Assembly (NCBI RefSeq): GCF_030734285.1
Contig: NZ_CP132294.1
Location: 1,488,001-1,552,000, forward strand
Direction of reading: 5' to 3'
Length of the DNA: 64,000 nt
Origin: Natronococcus sp. AD-5
GTDB taxonomy: Archaea > Halobacteriota > Halobacteria > Halobacteriales > Natrialbaceae
Shown here piece by piece: positions 24,258 to 64,000 of this stretch (positions are counted from its first letter, which is position 1; each line of letters begins with the position of its first letter). A program made the translations under genes and the position numbers. The notes under the pieces are model-generated. The model did no database searches. It worked only from the letters and a program-made list of their open reading frames with translations, and was not told where the DNA came from.

Positions 24258-24605
24258 TTACTCGCTCGCGTCGACCGCCCGCCGGTCGATCGACTCGGCG
24301 TCCGGGCCGAACTCCCGCTCGAGCAAGTCGGGTACGTCCCCCGGGGTCACGTCGGCGTACCACTCGTCGCGCGGTTGGATCGCGACCGCCGCGCCGTCCT
24401 CGCTGCAGAGGCCCAGACAGCCGGTCGTCGCGACGCCGATCGGCGACCAGAACGCGCCCCGCTCGCGGAGCCACGATTTGACCGCCTCGAGCGTCTCGTC
24501 GGCGCCGGCGTCGCCGCAGCAGGCGTACTCCGAGTCGCGGTCGTTCGTGCAGACGAGGACGCACGCCTCGAGTCGCGCTCGCTGTCGTTCGGTTTCCCTT
24601 CTCAT
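24258..24605 (-). CDS. Thioredoxin-like [2Fe-2S] ferredoxin
   Basis: The 115-residue protein has 'CVLVCTNDRDSEYACCGDAG' near the N-terminus and 'TTGCLGLCSEDGAAVAI' near residue 60, giving the cysteine pattern of the thioredoxin-fold [2Fe-2S] ferredoxins. Two extra cysteines are present in the first motif. Start ATG overlaps the cbtA stop codon (ATGA), so it is the third gene of the cbtB-cbtA operon. Ferredoxins of this type often accompany cobalamin genes in haloarchaea, which fits the cobalt transporter beside it. Specific partner unknown. Confidence 0.82.
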   Translation of the reverse strand: MRRETERQRARLEACVLVCTNDRDSEYACCGDAGADETLEAVKSWLRERGAFWSPIGVATTGCLGLCSEDGAAVAIQPRDEWYADVTPGDVPDLLEREFGPDAESIDRRAVDASE

Positions 24606-39156: not shown

Positions 39157-39184
39157 GCGGTCCGGCGACGGCCGGCCGTCACTA

Positions 39185-40696
39185 TCAGTCGTCGCTGGGT
39201 GCCGCACTCGGACGGTACCCGCGACTGATCACCTTCCACCGGCCGGTCGAGAACCGGTAGTAGTTGATCACGGCCGGCGCGGCGGTTTCGGCGACGAAGG
39301 CGAGGTACAGGCCCGTCAGGCCGAACGCAGGAACGGAGACGCCGGAGACGGTTACGCCGAGCGCCGGGACCGACAGCGACGGGATCGTGAGCCCCGCGGC
39401 GCCGAGGTACGCGAGCGGGACCGCGAGTCCGAACATTCCGACGAGTTGGCTGTAAAACGGCCAGCGCGTGTCGCCGCTGGCCTTGAGCGCCCCGTCGGCG
39501 CCGGTTGAGACGCCTTTCAGAACCACGGCGAGACAGGCCGCGTAGATGAGCGAGACCGCGATCGGGACCGAGAGCTCGGCCGGGTCGTCGGTGAACGTGA
39601 GGACGATCGGCTCCGCGAAGGCGAAGACGATCACGGCCGCGACGGCGTAGATCGCGACGCCGAACCGGATGATCTCCCGACCGTAGCGCTCCGCCCGGCC
39701 CTCGTCGCCGCCGCCGAGTTCCTGGCCGACGAGGCTCGAGGCGGCGAGTCCGAACCCCCAGCCAGGGGTGTTCATCAGGCCCCAGATACGCCGGGCGATG
39801 ACGTACGCGGCGACGGTCTGGTGCCCGAAGAGCGCGACGATCGCGAGCATCGGGAACTCGGCCATCGTCCAGACCGATTTCGTCCCCAGCACGGGGAGAC
39901 CGATCGTGGTTAGATCCCGGACGGTATCGGCGTGGAGGTAGCTGCCGAAGGGGTCGATACTGACCGGGAACGTGCCCACGCCGGGCAGCCAGCCCGCGAC
40001 GAGCCCCAGGGTGAACGCCGTCGTGACGACGACGTTCGCGAGGACGGTTCCAAGCGCCGCACCTTCGACGCCGAGTCCGAGACCGAAGATGAGGACGGCG
40101 TTGAGCGCGATGTTGGCGACGGCTCCGCCGGCGCGGACGACCATCGGGGTCCAGGCGTCGTCCATCCCTACGAACGTGCGGCTCCCGATGAGATTGAGGC
40201 CGGCGAACGGGATGCCGAGACCGACGATCTGCAGGTACGCCGCACCGAGTTCGATCTGTTCGGAATCGTTTCCGATGAGCGAGATCAGTTCGGACGGATA
40301 GGTCCAGAACAGCGCCGTGACCGGCAGCGTGAGAAAGAGAACCAGGACGACGCTCGAGCGAACGGCCTGGCCGAGCGAGTCGAACGCCTCGGCGCCGTAG
40401 CGCTGTGAAACGAGCGCGATCGTCCCGCCGGCGACGCCGCCGCCGATGGCGAACGCGAGCCCCCAGAACGGCGAGGCGAAGCCGACGCCGGCGATCGCCG
40501 TGGAGCCGACGGCGATGCCGACCATCGCGACGTCGACGGCGTTCTTCGACATCCGCGCGAGCCCGGTGACGACGCGGGGCCACGCGAGGTCCGTCGTACG
40601 CCGCGCTCGCTCGGCCTCGATCAGGCCGAGACGGGCGAGCGCGAGCCCGATCCAGAGGATGACAAGCCGAACCGGGTTGGGGAGACGACGATCCAC
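39185..40696 (-). CDS. MATE family multidrug/sodium antiporter
   Basis: The 503-residue protein has twelve membrane helices in two similar halves, as in MatE-domain exporters. Landmarks are 'VDVAMVGIAVGSTAIAGVGFASPFW' as the first substrate-path helix, GGGVAGGTIALVSQRYGAE, NIALNAVLIFGLGLGVEGAALGT-type helix 6, and FGLAASSLVGQELGGGDE in the second half. It uses a Na+ or H+ gradient to expel toxic compounds. GTG 40696 start. An N-terminal extension of about 40 residues contains an extra hydrophobic stretch. Confidence 0.9.
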   Translation of the reverse strand: MDRRLPNPVRLVILWIGLALARLGLIEAERARRTTDLAWPRVVTGLARMSKNAVDVAMVGIAVGSTAIAGVGFASPFWGLAFAIGGGVAGGTIALVSQRYGAEAFDSLGQAVRSSVVLVLFLTLPVTALFWTYPSELISLIGNDSEQIELGAAYLQIVGLGIPFAGLNLIGSRTFVGMDDAWTPMVVRAGGAVANIALNAVLIFGLGLGVEGAALGTVLANVVVTTAFTLGLVAGWLPGVGTFPVSIDPFGSYLHADTVRDLTTIGLPVLGTKSVWTMAEFPMLAIVALFGHQTVAAYVIARRIWGLMNTPGWGFGLAASSLVGQELGGGDEGRAERYGREIIRFGVAIYAVAAVIVFAFAEPIVLTFTDDPAELSVPIAVSLIYAACLAVVLKGVSTGADGALKASGDTRWPFYSQLVGMFGLAVPLAYLGAAGLTIPSLSVPALGVTVSGVSVPAFGLTGLYLAFVAETAAPAVINYYRFSTGRWKVISRGYRPSAAPSDD

Positions 40697-40796
40697 GAGA
40701 ATCGGGTGTGCGTAACCAACGGCGACAAAAAGACCTTCTCGAGCCGGCAGAGGCGACCGGTTTCGAATCGATACATGCTACCGACTCCCGCGGCGG

Positions 40797-41198
40797 TCAC
40801 TCGACGACGAGTACGGGTCGCGAAGACTCCGTCGCAACCCGGCTGGAGACGCTCTTGCGAAGGAATCGCTCGAGTCCGCGGTTCCGTCCCATGACGATGA
40901 GGTCGACGTCGTGTTCGTCGGCGTAGTCGAGGATCGCCCGGTGGCGGAGCCCGTGAGTGACCGTGGTCTCGACGTCGTCGACGCCGACCTCCCTCGCCCG
41001 AGAGGCGACGTACAACACCGCTTCTTCACCCGCCGGCTCGAGGTCGTCGAAGTCCATCCCGGGCGCGATCTCGGCGGAGTTGATGACGTACAGCGCGTGC
41101 AGCGTCGCGTCGTGGACGCTGGCGAGTTCGATCGCCTCCTCGATCGCTCGCTCGGTGTTCTCGCGACCGTCCGTGGGGATCAGGATCGAGTCGTACAT
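40797..41198 (-). CDS. Universal stress protein UspA family
   Basis: The 133-residue protein is a typical UspA: MYDSILIPTDGRENTERAI, 'ASVHDATLHALYVIN', then 'DLIVMGRNRGLERFLRKSVSSRV' with the ATP-binding loop, ending RPVLVVE. Haloarchaea carry many copies. It lies upstream of the MATE gene on the same strand, 101 bp apart. Its role is probably in stress signalling or nucleotide binding; ligand not deducible. Confidence 0.9.
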   Translation of the reverse strand: MYDSILIPTDGRENTERAIEEAIELASVHDATLHALYVINSAEIAPGMDFDDLEPAGEEAVLYVASRAREVGVDDVETTVTHGLRHRAILDYADEHDVDLIVMGRNRGLERFLRKSVSSRVATESSRPVLVVE

Positions 41199-41359
41199 GC
41201 GACGACGTTCGACGGGAACGGGTAAAAGCGTCCCAGCAAGTTAGCGTCCGTCTGCGGACGCGAAACGATCGGTAGGCGGCGTACTCCCGGGCGAATACGG
41301 CGGTTTCGATCGGGTAGCGAACGGCTACTTAATTCGCGAATGCGTGAACGTTCGCTTCG

Positions 41360-42565
41360 ATGAGCGACGCAATTCCGCTGTTCGAAATCCCCTGGGACGA
41401 ACGCGACGTGAGAAACGCCGTCGACTCGATCACGCGCGGCTCGTTCTGGGCCAACGGTCCGTACGTCGAGGAGTTCGAGTCCGGCCTCGAGGCCTACCTC
41501 GGCGTCGAGCACGCGGTGACGGTCAACTCGGGGACGACCGCGCTGGTCGCGGCGCTCGAGGCCCAGGGCATCGGCGAGGGCGACGAGGTCATCGTTCCCG
41601 CGTTCACCTTCATCGCGACGGCGAACGCCGTTCGACTCGCCGGCGCGCGACCGGTGTTCGCCGACATCGAGTCGGAGACGTACGGACTCGACCCGGCGTC
41701 CGTCGCCGAGAACGTCACCGACGAGACGGCCGCGATCATGCCGATTCACCCGTACGGTGCACCCTGTCGGATCGGCGCCATCGCCGACGTCGCTGCAGAG
41801 ACGAACGTCCCGCTGATCGAGGACGCGGCCGAAGCGTTCGGGAGCGATTACCGCGGGCGCGCGCTCGGGACGATCGGCGACGCGGCGGCGCTGAGTTTCT
41901 GTCAGAACAAGGTCCTTCCGACCGGAGAGGGCGGCGCCGTCGTCACCGACGAGGACGACCTCGCGCGACGACTCGAGCGGTTTCGTTCGCACGGACGCGC
42001 CTCCGAGGACTACTTCAGTTCCGCCGGGAGCGGCGACTACGTTGATCTCGGGACGAACGTCCGGATGTCCGATCTCGTGGCCTCGGTCGGCTGTGCGCAA
42101 CTCGAGAGGGTCGACGACCTCATCGCGGGTCGGCGACGGGCCGCGGGGCGACTCGCCGCGGGGCTGGCGGACGTTCCCGGCGTCGAACCGCACGCGGCCG
42201 CCGAACGCGATCGGCACGTTTACCAGCTCTTCACCGTGACGCTCGGCGCGGACGTGGATCGTGACGTCGTTATCGACACGTTAGCCGAACGGAAGATCTC
42301 CTCGAAAGTCTACTGGGACCCGCCGGTCCACCTCACGCACGCGTACCGGGAACGGTACGGCTACGAGCCGGGCCTCCTTCCGGTGACGGAAGCCGTTAGC
42401 GAGCGCGTTCTCTCGCTGCCGATCCATCCGGTGCTCCGGGACGACCAGATCGATCGCATCGTCGCCGGCGTCCGCGACGGCGTCGAGCGCGGACGGTCGG
42501 AGCCGACGAATGCTCGAGCCGAGAGCCCGACGATCGAAGCGAACCGTTCCCGTCGGGGACAGTAG
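41360..42565 (+). CDS. DegT/DnrJ/EryC1 sugar aminotransferase
   Basis: The 401-residue PLP enzyme has VNSGTTALVAALEAQG, 'MPIHPYGAPCRIGAIADVA', LIEDAAEAFGSDY and the PLP Lys at about residue 184 in FCQNKVLPTGEGG. It differs from the DegT enzyme at 9797 in its active-site surroundings, so the keto-sugar substrate is likely different. The last 30 residues are an unconserved tail. It is followed at 117 bp by the CBS-epimerase fusion, on the same strand, so the two probably form a sugar-nucleotide unit. Confidence 0.86.
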   Translation: MSDAIPLFEIPWDERDVRNAVDSITRGSFWANGPYVEEFESGLEAYLGVEHAVTVNSGTTALVAALEAQGIGEGDEVIVPAFTFIATANAVRLAGARPVFADIESETYGLDPASVAENVTDETAAIMPIHPYGAPCRIGAIADVAAETNVPLIEDAAEAFGSDYRGRALGTIGDAAALSFCQNKVLPTGEGGAVVTDEDDLARRLERFRSHGRASEDYFSSAGSGDYVDLGTNVRMSDLVASVGCAQLERVDDLIAGRRRAAGRLAAGLADVPGVEPHAAAERDRHVYQLFTVTLGADVDRDVVIDTLAERKISSKVYWDPPVHLTHAYRERYGYEPGLLPVTEAVSERVLSLPIHPVLRDDQIDRIVAGVRDGVERGRSEPTNARAESPTIEANRSRRGQ

Positions 42566-42681
42566 TGTCCGACTGACTCTCACACCAGCCGACGCATAAC
42601 AAAGGGTACTCGTCGAGGTGGTCAGCCTATGCCGCGCTCACGTCGGGTGGCCGACGAACCGGCGGCACCGAATCCAGAACT

Positions 42682-44091
42682 ATGAGATGGCCAGTGATCA
42701 CCGCCGAGGGAGCGTCGATCCGCGACGCGATCGCTCGGATCGATCGGTCAGAGGGGAGGGAAATCGTCGTCGTCGACGACCAGCGTCGACTCGTCGGAAC
42801 CGCGACGAGCGAACGACTCCGACGGGAACTGATCGACGGCGCGACGCCGACGACGCCGGTCTCGTCCGTCGTCGACGAGCCGACCCCCGAGCGAGCTGTG
42901 GATAACGGCCCGCCCGGGGACGCAACGACTGCGCTCGAGCACGAGGCACCCGACGACGCCGATTCGGAGTCGAACGGCGTCGAAACGGTGCTCGTGGTCG
43001 GCGGCGCCGGCTACGTCGGATCGGTGCTCTGCCGAACGTTGCTCGAGTCCGGGTTCGCGGTTCGCGTCCTCGACCCGCTCATGTACGGCGACGCCGGCGT
43101 CGCGGGTCTCGCCGATCGCGAGCGGTTCACGCTTCACCGGGGGGACGCCCGCTCGATCGAGACGGTGCTGGACGCGATCGAGGGGGTCGACGCCGTCGTC
43201 CACCTCGGCGGGATCGTCGGCGACCCCGCCACTGAACTCGATCCGCGAAAGACCCTCGAGTACAACCTCCACTCGACGCGGGTGCTCGCGTCCGTCTGCA
43301 AGTACCACCAACTCAACCGCTTCGTGTTCGCGTCGTCGTGCAGCGTTTACGGAAAAAGCGAGGACGGGGCCGGACGGCTGACCGAAGACGACGCGCTCAA
43401 CCCGGTCTCGCTGTACGCGCGGCTGAAGATCCAGTCCGAGCGCGTCCTTCGGGACCTCGCGGACGAGAGGTTCTCGCCGACGATCCTCCGCAAGGCGACG
43501 GTCTACGGCTACTCGCCGCGAATGCGGTTCGATCTCGTCGGCAACGTTCTCCCCGCCAAGGCCTACGAGCAGGGCGTCATCCCGGTCTTCGGCGGCGACC
43601 AGTACCGCCCGAACGTCCACGTCGAGGACGCCGCGCGGGCGTACGTCGACTGCCTGACCGCGCCGCTCGAGGACGTCGCCGGCGAGGTGTTCAACGTCGG
43701 TTCGAACCAGCAAAACTATCGAATCGACGAACTCGCGACCGTCGTCGCGGACGCCTTCCCCGCCGCCGAGATCGAGTATCACGACGAGCGAACCGACGAG
43801 CGAAGCTACCGCGTCGAGTTCGAGAAGATCCGATCGACGCTCGGCTTCGAGCCCGAACGGTCCGTCCGCGATCACTGCCTCGAGCTGAAAGCGGCGTTCG
43901 AGAGCGGCGCGTTTCCGGCGTACACCGCGACCCGGTTCAACAACCGCGCGACCCTCGAGAGCGCGCCCTCCTTCGCGGAGACGGCCGCGGTGATCGGCGA
44001 GCACGAACCGCTCGCGTTCGACGGCCCGGAGGGACGGGCGCTCGCCTCCGACGTACGGAGTGACGGCCGGCAATCGACCGGCACGCACTGA
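42682..44091 (+). CDS. CBS-like domain fused to NAD-dependent sugar epimerase
   Basis: The 469-residue protein is a fusion. Residues 1-65 ('GREIVVVDDQRRLVGTATSE' and neighbours) match the CBS-like domain usually found at the N-terminus of sugar-phosphate nucleotidyltransferases. Residues 66-100 are an acidic linker. From residue 101 on it is an extended SDR epimerase or dehydratase: VVGGAGYVGSVL (about 105-116), 'ASSCSVYGKS', catalytic YARLK (245-249) and GDQYRPNVHVEDAARAY. It ends with an unconserved tail. The substrate is probably a nucleotide sugar made with the adjacent aminotransferase. CBS domains often sense adenosine nucleotides, suggesting feedback control. Confidence 0.86.
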   Translation: MRWPVITAEGASIRDAIARIDRSEGREIVVVDDQRRLVGTATSERLRRELIDGATPTTPVSSVVDEPTPERAVDNGPPGDATTALEHEAPDDADSESNGVETVLVVGGAGYVGSVLCRTLLESGFAVRVLDPLMYGDAGVAGLADRERFTLHRGDARSIETVLDAIEGVDAVVHLGGIVGDPATELDPRKTLEYNLHSTRVLASVCKYHQLNRFVFASSCSVYGKSEDGAGRLTEDDALNPVSLYARLKIQSERVLRDLADERFSPTILRKATVYGYSPRMRFDLVGNVLPAKAYEQGVIPVFGGDQYRPNVHVEDAARAYVDCLTAPLEDVAGEVFNVGSNQQNYRIDELATVVADAFPAAEIEYHDERTDERSYRVEFEKIRSTLGFEPERSVRDHCLELKAAFESGAFPAYTATRFNNRATLESAPSFAETAAVIGEHEPLAFDGPEGRALASDVRSDGRQSTGTH

Positions 44092-44280
44092 AGCGGCTGG
44101 GACGAGCGATACCCGACGACCTCGGAGGACTCGACAACGCTCGACGATCGTCGCGACGGCCCCTCCGAATTCGATACAGATCGTACAGAGCCCGTAGCGA
44201 TTGCCGCGGCGCTCGAGTTCGGTTTCGACGGGAGCGATCTCCGCGAGGCGACGAGTGCCCGCCGGGCGAACGAATCAGTG

Positions 44281-44290
44281 CACTTAAATC
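44281..44290 (+). promoter_or_regulatory. Possible promoter of the 5S rRNA gene
   Basis: 'cacttaaatc' about 90 bp before the 5S gene resembles the TATA-type element of haloarchaeal rRNA promoters and would start a precursor with about 65 nt of leader. By eye only. Confidence 0.4.
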
Positions 44291-44377
44291 GAAGCCGACA
44301 CAACGATCATTCGAACGATCACGTCGCACCCGTAACCGACGCTGGTGCTCGCGGCGGTTCGATTCCGTCGGTCGGCG

Positions 44378-44499
44378 TTACGGCGGCCACAGCGGCGGGG
44401 TTCCTCCCGTACCCATCCCGAACACGGAAGATAAGCCCGCCTGCGTGTCGGTCAGTACTGGAGTGCGCGAGCCTCTGGGAACTCCGATTCGCCGCCCCC
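44378..44499 (+). rRNA. rrf: 5S ribosomal RNA, without adjacent 16S or 23S gene
   Basis: The sequence matches haloarchaeal 5S rRNA along its full length of about 122 nt. The long invariant stretch around 'CCCATCCCGAACACGGAAG' is present, then GATAAGCCC, then 'GTCAGTACTGGAGTGCGCGA' and GCCTCTGGGAA. The closing stem pairs GGCGGC (44382-44387) with GCCGCC (44491-44496). No 16S, 23S or tRNA gene is in the window, so this is either an extra copy or a 5S gene separated from its operon. A short T-run (cattttc at about 44511) may end transcription. Confidence 0.92.
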
Positions 44500-44863
44500 A
44501 CTCATACTCACATTTTCACACCCATCGAGCGGTCGCGCCGTCCTCGAAGCGACACTAGCGGTTCAGCGCTCGGTTCGTACGCTCCGCGTACCGTCCGATA
44601 CCCGTCGAACAATTCGATCGGCGGATCAAAATCCAGAACGAGCGGCGCTCTTCTCTCACGGTCGAGGTGGCGCTCTCCGGTCTGAAACAATCGGTCTGTT
44701 GCTCGAACTCCCGCTGTTGAGCGTCGTTTCCCGACTTCTGTTGCAACTTTGAGAGCGAGATATTTGGGAGGCGGCGACACCTTCGGTGAGTGATTATTGA
44801 GTGAAATCGAAGAAACCGTACCCGATACTGGTACAAACTACTCACTCGACGCGAACCAACTGA
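44500..44863. other. Spacer between 5S gene and repeat array
   Basis: No convincing gene. Two overlapping minus-strand frames (44508-44780 and 44555-44845) lack family features. This could be the remnant of a former outermost cassette, since the stretch directly to its right (44864-44927) is shared with the copy-D arm. Confidence 0.4.
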
Positions 44864-44927: not shown

Positions 44928-44972
44928 CTATCTCTTGCTCCTTTGCTCGACCGTGTTTAGGCGGCTGAAATC
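44928..44972 (-). repeat. aroQ-3'-end repeat, copy A
   Basis: On the plus strand the core is 'ttgctcctttgctcgacc' followed by gtgtttag. On the minus strand it translates as DFSRLNTVEQRSKR and a TAG stop, close to the end of chorismate mutase (LNKVEQRSNR, stop). Copies B to F and the real aroQ end (G) are in the same orientation. It marks the left edge of the array. Confidence 0.8.
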
Positions 44973-51799: not shown

Positions 51800-51845
51800 C
51801 TATCGACTCTCTCGTTGCTCGACCGTGTTCAGGTAGCTGAAATCC
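51800..51845 (-). repeat. aroQ-3'-end repeat, copy B
   Basis: Plus strand 'ctctcgttgctcgaccgtgt' continuing tcaggtagctgaaatcc. The minus strand reads DFSYLNTVEQRESR and TAG. Both flanks are most similar to those of copy E. Confidence 0.8.
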
Positions 51846-55942: not shown

Positions 55943-56004
55943 ACAGCAATCGGAAGATTTCCAACCCATATCGTCCGGTAGAAGCGGTATTAACCCCAAT
56001 TAGT
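55943..56004. repeat. Left arm D, shared with arm A
   Basis: 'cagcaatcggaagattt' then a diverged part ending 'tagtgctatctctt', as in the arm before copy A. Confidence 0.6.
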
Positions 56005-56040
56005 GCTATCTCTTGTTCCTTTGCTCGACCTCGTTCAGGT
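56005..56040 (-). repeat. aroQ-3'-end repeat, copy D
   Basis: Plus strand 'gttcctttgctcgacctcgt' continuing tcagg. The minus strand reads DLNEVEQRNKR and TAG. Its right flank is unlike the others, but also leads to a promoter, 89 bp on. Confidence 0.75.
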
Positions 56041-56128
56041 CTATAACTCGCGTTGCCCTGATCTGTGCGCTTTGCCGCTTTTCGATCCGTTGTCCATCAT
56101 CTGTGGCAAGCGTGGCGCGTCTCTAGGG

Positions 56129-56160
56129 TTTTTAAGCGTGCATGTAGTACTGTGTACTAC
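56129..56160 (+). promoter_or_regulatory. vapBC promoter and perfect palindromic operator
   Basis: A TATA-like 'tttttaag' (56129-56136) is followed at 56144-56160 by a perfect inverted repeat, GTAGTAC-TGT-GTACTAC, which ends one base before the ATG. The palindrome would cover the transcription start and so is the expected operator for autorepression by VapB or the VapBC complex. Confidence 0.7.
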
Positions 56161-56161
56161 G

Positions 56162-56422
56162 ATGGCGACAAAAACGATTTCACTCGACGAAGAAGCCTAC
56201 GAGCGGCTGAAGGCTCAGAAAAAAGAAGGCGAAAGCTTCAGTGAAACCGTCAAACGTCTCGCGGGGGAACGGTCGTGGAACGAAGTCGTAGGTATCCTCT
56301 CCGAGGAGGAGGCTTCGGACCTCGAAAGCGCTATCGAGGAAGGGCGCACTCGGTCCAAAGAACGGAGTAACCGCCTCAGAGCAGAGCTAGACGAAGTCGT
56401 TGGCAACGAGAAGTCGGAATGA
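56162..56422 (+). CDS. vapB: VapB-type antitoxin
   Basis: The 86-residue protein starts with a ribbon-type DNA-binding segment ('TKTISLDEEAYERLKAQKKE', residues 3-22), with GESFSETVKRLAGERSW after it. The C-terminal half is charged and helical and would wrap the toxin. This is the DUF217 VapB group of archaea. The ATG directly follows the palindrome, so the mRNA is probably leaderless or nearly so. The stop overlaps the vapC start by four bases (ATGA). With vapC it is the whole of cassette 4. Confidence 0.88.
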   Translation: MATKTISLDEEAYERLKAQKKEGESFSETVKRLAGERSWNEVVGILSEEEASDLESAIEEGRTRSKERSNRLRAELDEVVGNEKSE

Positions 56423-56811
56423 TCCAGGATACGTCATTTATCATCGACCTGTTACGCGGGGACGAAGACGCAAAACGGCTTCTCGACATCGTCGAGAAGG
56501 AGTCACGACCACAGAAAGTATCCTCCGTAACGGTGCTCGAACTGTACGAGGGCGTCGTCCGTTCACAGACGCCAGAAACGAAACGAGAGCGCATCCTCGA
56601 CGTACTGGAAACGAAGCACGTCGTAAGTGCCGACCAGACCGTAATGCGAAAAGCCGGAAAACTCTCCGGTGAGCTGATCAACGACGGTGGACGAATCGAG
56701 CGGGAGGATTGCATTATCGCAGCAACTGCCCTCCTGAATGATGAGCCAATTCTCACGAGAAACACCAAACATTTCAACCGTGTCGATGACCTCGAAGCAC
56801 GGTCGTACTAG
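56419..56811 (+). CDS. vapC: VapC-type PIN-domain toxin
   Basis: The 130-residue PIN nuclease has the four acidic positions: Asp in 'MIQDTSFIIDLLRGDED', Glu in SSVTVLELYEG, Asp/Glu in 'RIEREDCIIAATALLND', and Asp near the end in FNRVDDLEA. VapC toxins cut tRNA or rRNA. It is co-translated with VapB. In an array, toxin-antitoxin cassettes can stabilise the region by killing cells that lose it; here that is inference. Confidence 0.9.
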   Translation: MIQDTSFIIDLLRGDEDAKRLLDIVEKESRPQKVSSVTVLELYEGVVRSQTPETKRERILDVLETKHVVSADQTVMRKAGKLSGELINDGGRIEREDCIIAATALLNDEPILTRNTKHFNRVDDLEARSY

Positions 56812-63305: not shown

Positions 63306-63341
63306 CGACTACCGGTTGCTCCTTTGCTCCACTTTGTTCAG
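63306..63341 (-). repeat. aroQ-3'-end repeat, copy G (the native gene end)
   Basis: Here the repeat is the true end of chorismate mutase: minus strand IELNKVEQRSNR and TAG (63309-63311). Up to 'gtagctga' in the other copies, the sequence to the right is replaced by aroQ coding sequence. This defines the probable attachment site. Confidence 0.85.
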
Positions 63342-63635
63342 TTCGATCAGCAGCCGGAAGATCGCTTTCACGAGATTCGCGTCGACGTCGAACTGCTCCG
63401 CGTTTCGCCCCGCACGCTCCATCACCTGTTCCTCCTGTTTCTCGTCGGTCGTCGGCAACCCCTTCTCGCCTTTGACCGCCGCGATCGTATCCGCGACGTA
63501 GGTGCGCTGGGCGATCAGTTCGACGATCTCGCGGTCGATCGTCTGAATCTCCTCGCGCAGTTCCTCGAGGTTCATCTCTTCGGGTACTCGGTCCGTCGTG
63601 TCGCTGCCGTCCGTCGTGTTCTCGTCTGCTGTCAT
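63309..63635 (-). CDS. aroQ: Chorismate mutase (AroQ type)
   Basis: The 108-residue protein converts chorismate to prephenate. Its all-helical AroQ fold is seen in 'MNLEELREEIQTIDREIVEL' (with the leading Arg), AQRTYVADTIAAVKGEKGLP and 'DVDANLVKAIFRLLIELNKV' (third helix). The first 20 residues are an acidic extension; ATG 63635 overlaps the shikimate kinase stop (ATGA). An inner ATG at MNLEE is possible. The last 11 codons are the sequence repeated six more times to the left. The stop is TAG. Confidence 0.92.
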   Translation of the reverse strand: MTADENTTDGSDTTDRVPEEMNLEELREEIQTIDREIVELIAQRTYVADTIAAVKGEKGLPTTDEKQEEQVMERAGRNAEQFDVDANLVKAIFRLLIELNKVEQRSNR

Positions 63636-64000
63636 GTCGTTCGTGTTCCGTCGGTTCGCGTCGTCAGTAATCGTGTCGTTCCGTCGCGGTCGTTCCACCG
63701 ATCCCGTACTCCCTCGAGCGTCGCCCGGTCGCCGACGGCGACGTAGCTCGGCCCCGTTCCCGAGAGCGAGACGCCGGTCACGTCGGGCAGGGCCTCGAGC
63801 ATCGGTCCCGTCGGGAACTCGAGCGCGCCGCAGAAGGCGAAGCCGTTGACCGTCATCGCCTCGCCGTAGCGCCCTTCGAGCGCGAGTTCCTCGACGAGTT
63901 CGGCCATCGGCGCGATCCGCTTGCAGGCGGCGACGTCGGCGTCGGCGCTGTAGGCCTGCTCCGGCGGCGTGTAGACGAGCGCATTCCACTCGATCGGTTC
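63632..64000 (-). CDS. aroK: Shikimate kinase, archaeal GHMP type (C-terminal part)
   Basis: The gene runs off the window; the 122 C-terminal residues are present. 'YSADADVAACKRIAPMAELV', then LEGRYGEAMTVNGFAFCGAL and 'DVTGVSLSGTGPSYVAVGDR' (GHMP motif 3) identify the archaeal shikimate kinase, which phosphorylates shikimate in aromatic amino-acid synthesis. It overlaps aroQ by four bases, forming a shikimate/chorismate operon. N-terminal ATP site is outside the window. Confidence 0.92.
   Translation of the reverse strand, partial: EPIEWNALVYTPPEQAYSADADVAACKRIAPMAELVEELALEGRYGEAMTVNGFAFCGALEFPTGPMLEALPDVTGVSLSGTGPSYVAVGDRATLEGVRDRWNDRDGTTRLLTTRTDGTRTT

Follow-up and report, generated by a model that had tools for sequence, protein, structure and literature searches.

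An extra 5S rRNA gene, probably functional, standing apart from the rRNA operons of Natronococcus sp. AD-5

The genome of Natronococcus sp. AD-5 (G000; 5,168,305 bases in two contigs) carries a full-length 5S rRNA gene outside any rRNA operon, and on the strength of sequence comparisons we consider it probable (at about 0.8) that this lone gene is a functional extra 5S rRNA gene forming a transcription unit of its own. It lies in the 64 kb stretch of DNA that we analysed (the window; positions 1488001-1552000 of a contig 4,145,149 bases long). Counting rRNA genes across the whole genome gave four 5S, three 16S and three 23S genes. The three 16S-23S-5S operons are complete and have one 5S each, and the fourth 5S is the lone one. 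The initial annotation had suggested an extra 5S gene and had proposed such a count as the way to check it, and the count agrees with that suggestion. The extra gene appears to be real and intact and is very probably active. The coordinates of the gene and associated features are collected in Table 1.

Table 1. Features of the lone 5S locus and its surroundings (positions are those of the window)
Feature	Position	Strand	Basis or description
Lone 5S rRNA gene, full-length	44379-44500	+	RF00001, 87.4 bits, model positions 1-120 of 120; 121 of 122 bases as in operon 5S
TATA-like element GTGCACTTAAA, likely promoter of the lone 5S	44278-44288	+	Invariant in G000, G008 and G004
Conserved unit: promoter-like element, leader, 5S and start of trailer	44273-44508	+	Cross-species identity
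tRNA-like leader	44336-44375	+	Acceptor stem plus T-arm immediately 5' of the 5S
Leader 5' stem and 3' acceptor strand	44336-44340; 44371-44375	+	CCGAC...GTCGG stem
Leader T-stem	44352-44357 / 44365-44370	+	Six pairs
Leader T-loop	44358-44364	+	TTCGATT
Chorismate mutase gene	63309-63647	-	PF01817

The gene was matched untruncated to the Rfam 5S_rRNA family by cmscan (E = 2.6e-17; gathering threshold 38 bits), and it scores higher than the operon 5S copies of the same genome (83.2 bits). It is the sole Rfam match across the window, in which cmscan found no 16S or 23S match and in which no tRNA genes were found; its original description as a 5S gene without 16S or 23S beside it thus holds. The one base by which it differs from the operon copies is at position 101. 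The gene had also been described as full-length, with paired ends, at 44378-44499. Full length is borne out, although the true coordinates are one base further on, and the ends do pair in helix I, although the outer three of the nine model pairs are non-standard.

Two of the eight congeners that we compared, G008 and G004, likewise have a 5S that no 23S precedes, at the same locus as in G000 (L015 and L020). All three species have in common the left flank (39183-44155, with aminotransferase and epimerase genes) and, on the right side, the chorismate mutase gene (63308-63997). The DNA between the lone 5S and the chorismate mutase gene differs across the three, so that the 5S borders on variable DNA. 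In three other congeners (G001, G005 and G007) the sugar and chorismate mutase genes are 1-2 kb apart on the stretches compared, with no 5S between them. The other congeners were uninformative: the neighbours are apart in G003 and on different contigs in G006, and G002 is fragmentary. The sole 5S match in this last assembly, of 50.8 bits (G002:C26:20144-20244, L018) and behind a 23S that aligns in pieces, probably reflects an assembly problem.

Intergenic conservation among the three species carrying the lone gene starts at the TATA-like element and continues through the leader and the 5S. Three-way identity is 0.05-0.22 in blocks that end no later than 44258 and 0.70-1.00 in blocks from 44279 to 44515, and pairwise identity is 91.5% to G004 over 44273-44508 and 91.8% to G008 over 44311-44551. 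The TATA-like element is likely to be the promoter of the lone 5S. A promoter-like element had been proposed in the initial annotation, and the conservation of this box in three species lends support to that proposal. A sigma-70 scan, which covers no archaeal promoters, returned no promoter, and the same scan, uninformative here as well, returned no terminator-like site 3' of the lone 5S on the + strand. RNA polymerase would be expected to start about 25 bases behind the TATA-like box.

The resulting transcript would fold into a tRNA-like leader directly before the 5S, as covariation in the T-stem supports. A T-arm with a TTCGANT loop is found upstream of all 53 of the 5S copies compared, which come from 30 genomes, with at least four of its six pairs formed in each, and a five-pair acceptor partner is found upstream of 50 of the 53 by a search that was free to choose its place. 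Across 18 distinct T-stems, 102 of 108 cells are paired, a value that none of 2000 shuffles equalled (mean 85.8, sd 2.9). In G000, the lone and operon leaders form their pairs from different bases. The fold of the leader displays the acceptor and T arms, yet its energy is no better than that of shuffles (z = 0.18). A leader start of ACCGAC is seen in 13 of the 22 extra copies, whether lone or second in a tandem, versus 2 of the 31 operon-proximal ones. According to passages in two papers, tRNase Z of Haloferax volcanii cuts at a tRNA-like structure to form the 5' end of the 5S (PMC3296008 and PMC7714728, citing Hoelzle et al. 2008), and that structure is described there as lying directly upstream of the 5S, as here. 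The leader of the lone 5S resembles this element, and by analogy tRNase Z would cut behind the leader and so give the 5' end of the 5S.

Comparison of lone with operon copies suggests that they evolve in concert. The lone copies of G000, G008 and G004 vary at five sites, at four of which (69, 74, 75 and 104) each matches the operon copies of its own species, a pattern that points to conversion between the lone gene and its operon counterparts. The two kinds of copy are unlike at site 101 in G000 and at site 119 in G008, which tells the other way, and are identical over 122 positions in G004. Gene conversion is most likely what keeps the lone 5S similar to the operon copies, and such homogenisation suggests that the lone 5S is still held to ribosomal function. 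Because its sequence is homogenised, the lone 5S would join the operon copies in a single ribosomal pool. As to its source, the gene may derive from a tandem second 5S behind one rrn operon, an arrangement seen in many relatives, which would have become lone in the ancestor of this Natronococcus subgroup. We infer this tandem origin less firmly, because conversion overwrites 5S bodies and because the leaders nearest to that of G000 outside the trio include operon-proximal ones (scores of 38 for G023_tan1, 38 for G045_lone and 35 for G004_op).

We counted rRNA genes across the family Natrialbaceae and beyond it. From a sample of 56 other genomes of the family (G001-G056), the 35 with few contigs were counted, making 36 with G000; those broken or collapsed at the rRNA genes (G011, G013, G025, G026, G029, G030, G036, G050, G052 and G055) were set aside, leaving 26, and G091 was added to give 27 clean genomes. 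G091 came from a second set of 59 genomes, 28 of which were counted (G091 and 27 of other families); G097 was set aside because one of its 5S genes is on a contig without a 23S end, leaving 26. One 5S more than 23S was found in 15 of the 27 clean Natrialbaceae genomes and no extra 5S in the other 12, versus none in the 26 clean genomes from eight other families of the order. The extra gene stands alone in five of the 27 (G000, G008, G031, G035 and G045) and in tandem behind an operon in ten (G003, G012, G021, G023, G033, G039, G042, G047, G048 and G049). Within the family, with relatedness ignored, an extra 5S is present in 13 of 14 genomes with at least three operons and in 2 of 13 with one or two. 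The Fisher tests used 0 of 27 other-family genomes (with G097 included), and their p-values are not to be read as chances, since the genomes are related. That the excess is exactly one 5S is true in the clean genomes counted but is no rule: plasmid unnamed4 of Natronorubrum bangense (NZ_CP031309) has two loci (L045 and L047), each with a 23S end followed by two 5S genes. This 115 kb plasmid thus carries rRNA operons with tandem 5S genes.

In other genera the lone 5S genes sit elsewhere. Those of G031, G052 and G045 have a neighbour gene in common, those of G035 and G055 share another locus, and that of G030 has no shared protein-coding neighbour except frames that overlap the 5S itself. Unlike the Natronococcus copies, the lone genes of these six genomes differ from their own operon 5S at about 11-18 of 122 positions, with alignment scores of 104-111 of 122. 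Several of these lone 5S genes (L060-L065, from G031, G035, G045, G055, G052 and G030) are closer to each other than to their own operon copies.

Other explanations of the lone gene have to be weighed against a functional extra gene. That it is an assembly artefact or a degenerate 5S-like sequence has next to no probability: we found no point that supports this, the match covers the full length of the model at a high score with one of 122 bases off the operon 5S, and the same layout occurs in three assemblies whose downstream DNA differs. A sequence gap hiding an rRNA operon, which the initial annotation had named beside degeneracy as a possible refutation, was likewise rejected, because the contig has three complete operons elsewhere and because the lone 5S is at the same place in the two further assemblies, G008 and G004. 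It is unlikely, too, that the gene is a passive leftover from a fourth rRNA operon, the functionless tail that stayed when the 16S and 23S were deleted. The numbers are suggestive of such a loss in that the congener G003 has four operons, one of which is followed by a second 5S, and G000 and G008 have three operons plus the lone 5S. Nevertheless, the tandem-5S region of G003 matches the window only at the 5S copies and their leaders, with its flanks unmatched, and deletion of an operon in place is therefore unsupported. Moreover, a relic would decay, but the lone copy retains all but one base of the operon 5S; the promoter-like block is conserved in three species; and the 64 kb around the gene hold no 16S or 23S match.

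The initial annotation also raised the question of whether the gene, at the edge of an array of repeats, marks a second integration-prone site, either because an element brought the 5S in or because the end of the 5S serves as an attachment site. We consider this very unlikely, and nothing marks the 5S as a target. The gene does lie near a G+C edge (about 0.65-0.71 over 19-44 kb versus about 0.50-0.60 over most of 47-62 kb), with G+C dropping across the boundary between the 5S and the array, and the downstream DNA is unlike among the three species. However, the left flank is syntenic in relatives, and neither a further copy nor a piece of the 5S occurs elsewhere in the window. None of the 13-mers of the 5S and leader (44335-44500) recurs elsewhere in the window, and the single recurrence for the larger segment 44335-44560 is that of 44534, downstream of the gene, at 24390; a duplicated target-gene end flanking an insert, as expected of an attachment site, was thus not found for the 5S in the window. 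The array repeats are instead similar to the chorismate mutase gene at its 3' end, and approximate copies of that end occur at 44928, 54503, 56006 and 61356 besides the gene itself at 63309, with related blocks near 51800 and 56850; the outermost copy starts 428 bases behind the 5S. In a phage collection, the segment 44260-44560 matched no haloarchaeal virus, its only match being one of 54 bases to a Paenibacillus phage. Given the lack of repeated 5S 13-mers, the likeness of the array repeats to the chorismate mutase 3' end and the fall in G+C, the 5S appears to be the neighbour of an insertion-rich stretch and not its target. The chorismate mutase 3'-end copies punctuate an 18 kb G+C-poorer stretch in the manner of serial attachment sites. 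Within it, two adjacent small ORFs at 56003-56811 look by eye like an antitoxin-toxin pair, and G005 and G006 have homologous frames close to that locus.

A functional extra 5S gene, which is the reading we prefer, is in itself ordinary ribosomal equipment. What the analysis adds is the comparative picture: an additional 5S, tandem or lone and preceded by a tRNA-like leader of its own, is common in Natrialbaceae, and its sequence is homogenised with the operon copies in one genus but has diverged from them elsewhere. The lone gene offers a natural case in which the dose and regulation of 5S are uncoupled from those of 16S and 23S, and its putative processing leader lends itself to immediate testing. 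The family comparison (15 of 27 genomes versus 0 of 26, with tandem and lone forms) gives a way to ask whether ribosome assembly is limited by the supply of 5S and whether some haloarchaea use two 5S types. Tentatively, and as a possibility that we would rate below even odds by a good deal, Natrialbaceae may have retained an extra 5S together with its own tRNA-like leader and several times shifted it out of the operon to serve as a 5S supply under separate control, with the Natronococcus copy kept near-identical by conversion and the copies of other genera diverging, perhaps to serve in two-5S ribosomes.

The lone 5S is a modest variation on an arrangement known in archaea. We found no published lone extra 5S in Natrialbaceae in the literature, as judged from titles and the openings of abstracts. 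An excerpt of one paper gives Thermococcus kodakarensis one 16S-23S operon and two 5S genes (PMC7137780); this euryarchaeon, like G000, would thus have more 5S genes than 16S-23S operons, although it belongs to another order and the likeness drawn here is one of gene numbers. For a Haloarcula strain, an extra 5S copy on a replicon is mentioned in part of another paper (PMC12650772). The tandem copies that we examined have the same kind of tRNA-like leader as the lone 5S. A further case is Natrinema sp. J7-2, which we take to belong to the same family as Natronococcus. A passage on this haloarchaeon describes a second 5S gene in one of its rrn operons (PMC3402447), and by that description it resembles G000 in having three operons and one extra 5S. 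The extra 5S of Natrinema sp. J7-2 is, however, described there as lying inside an operon, whereas the lone 5S of Natronococcus sp. AD-5 is separate and has a promoter-like element of its own.
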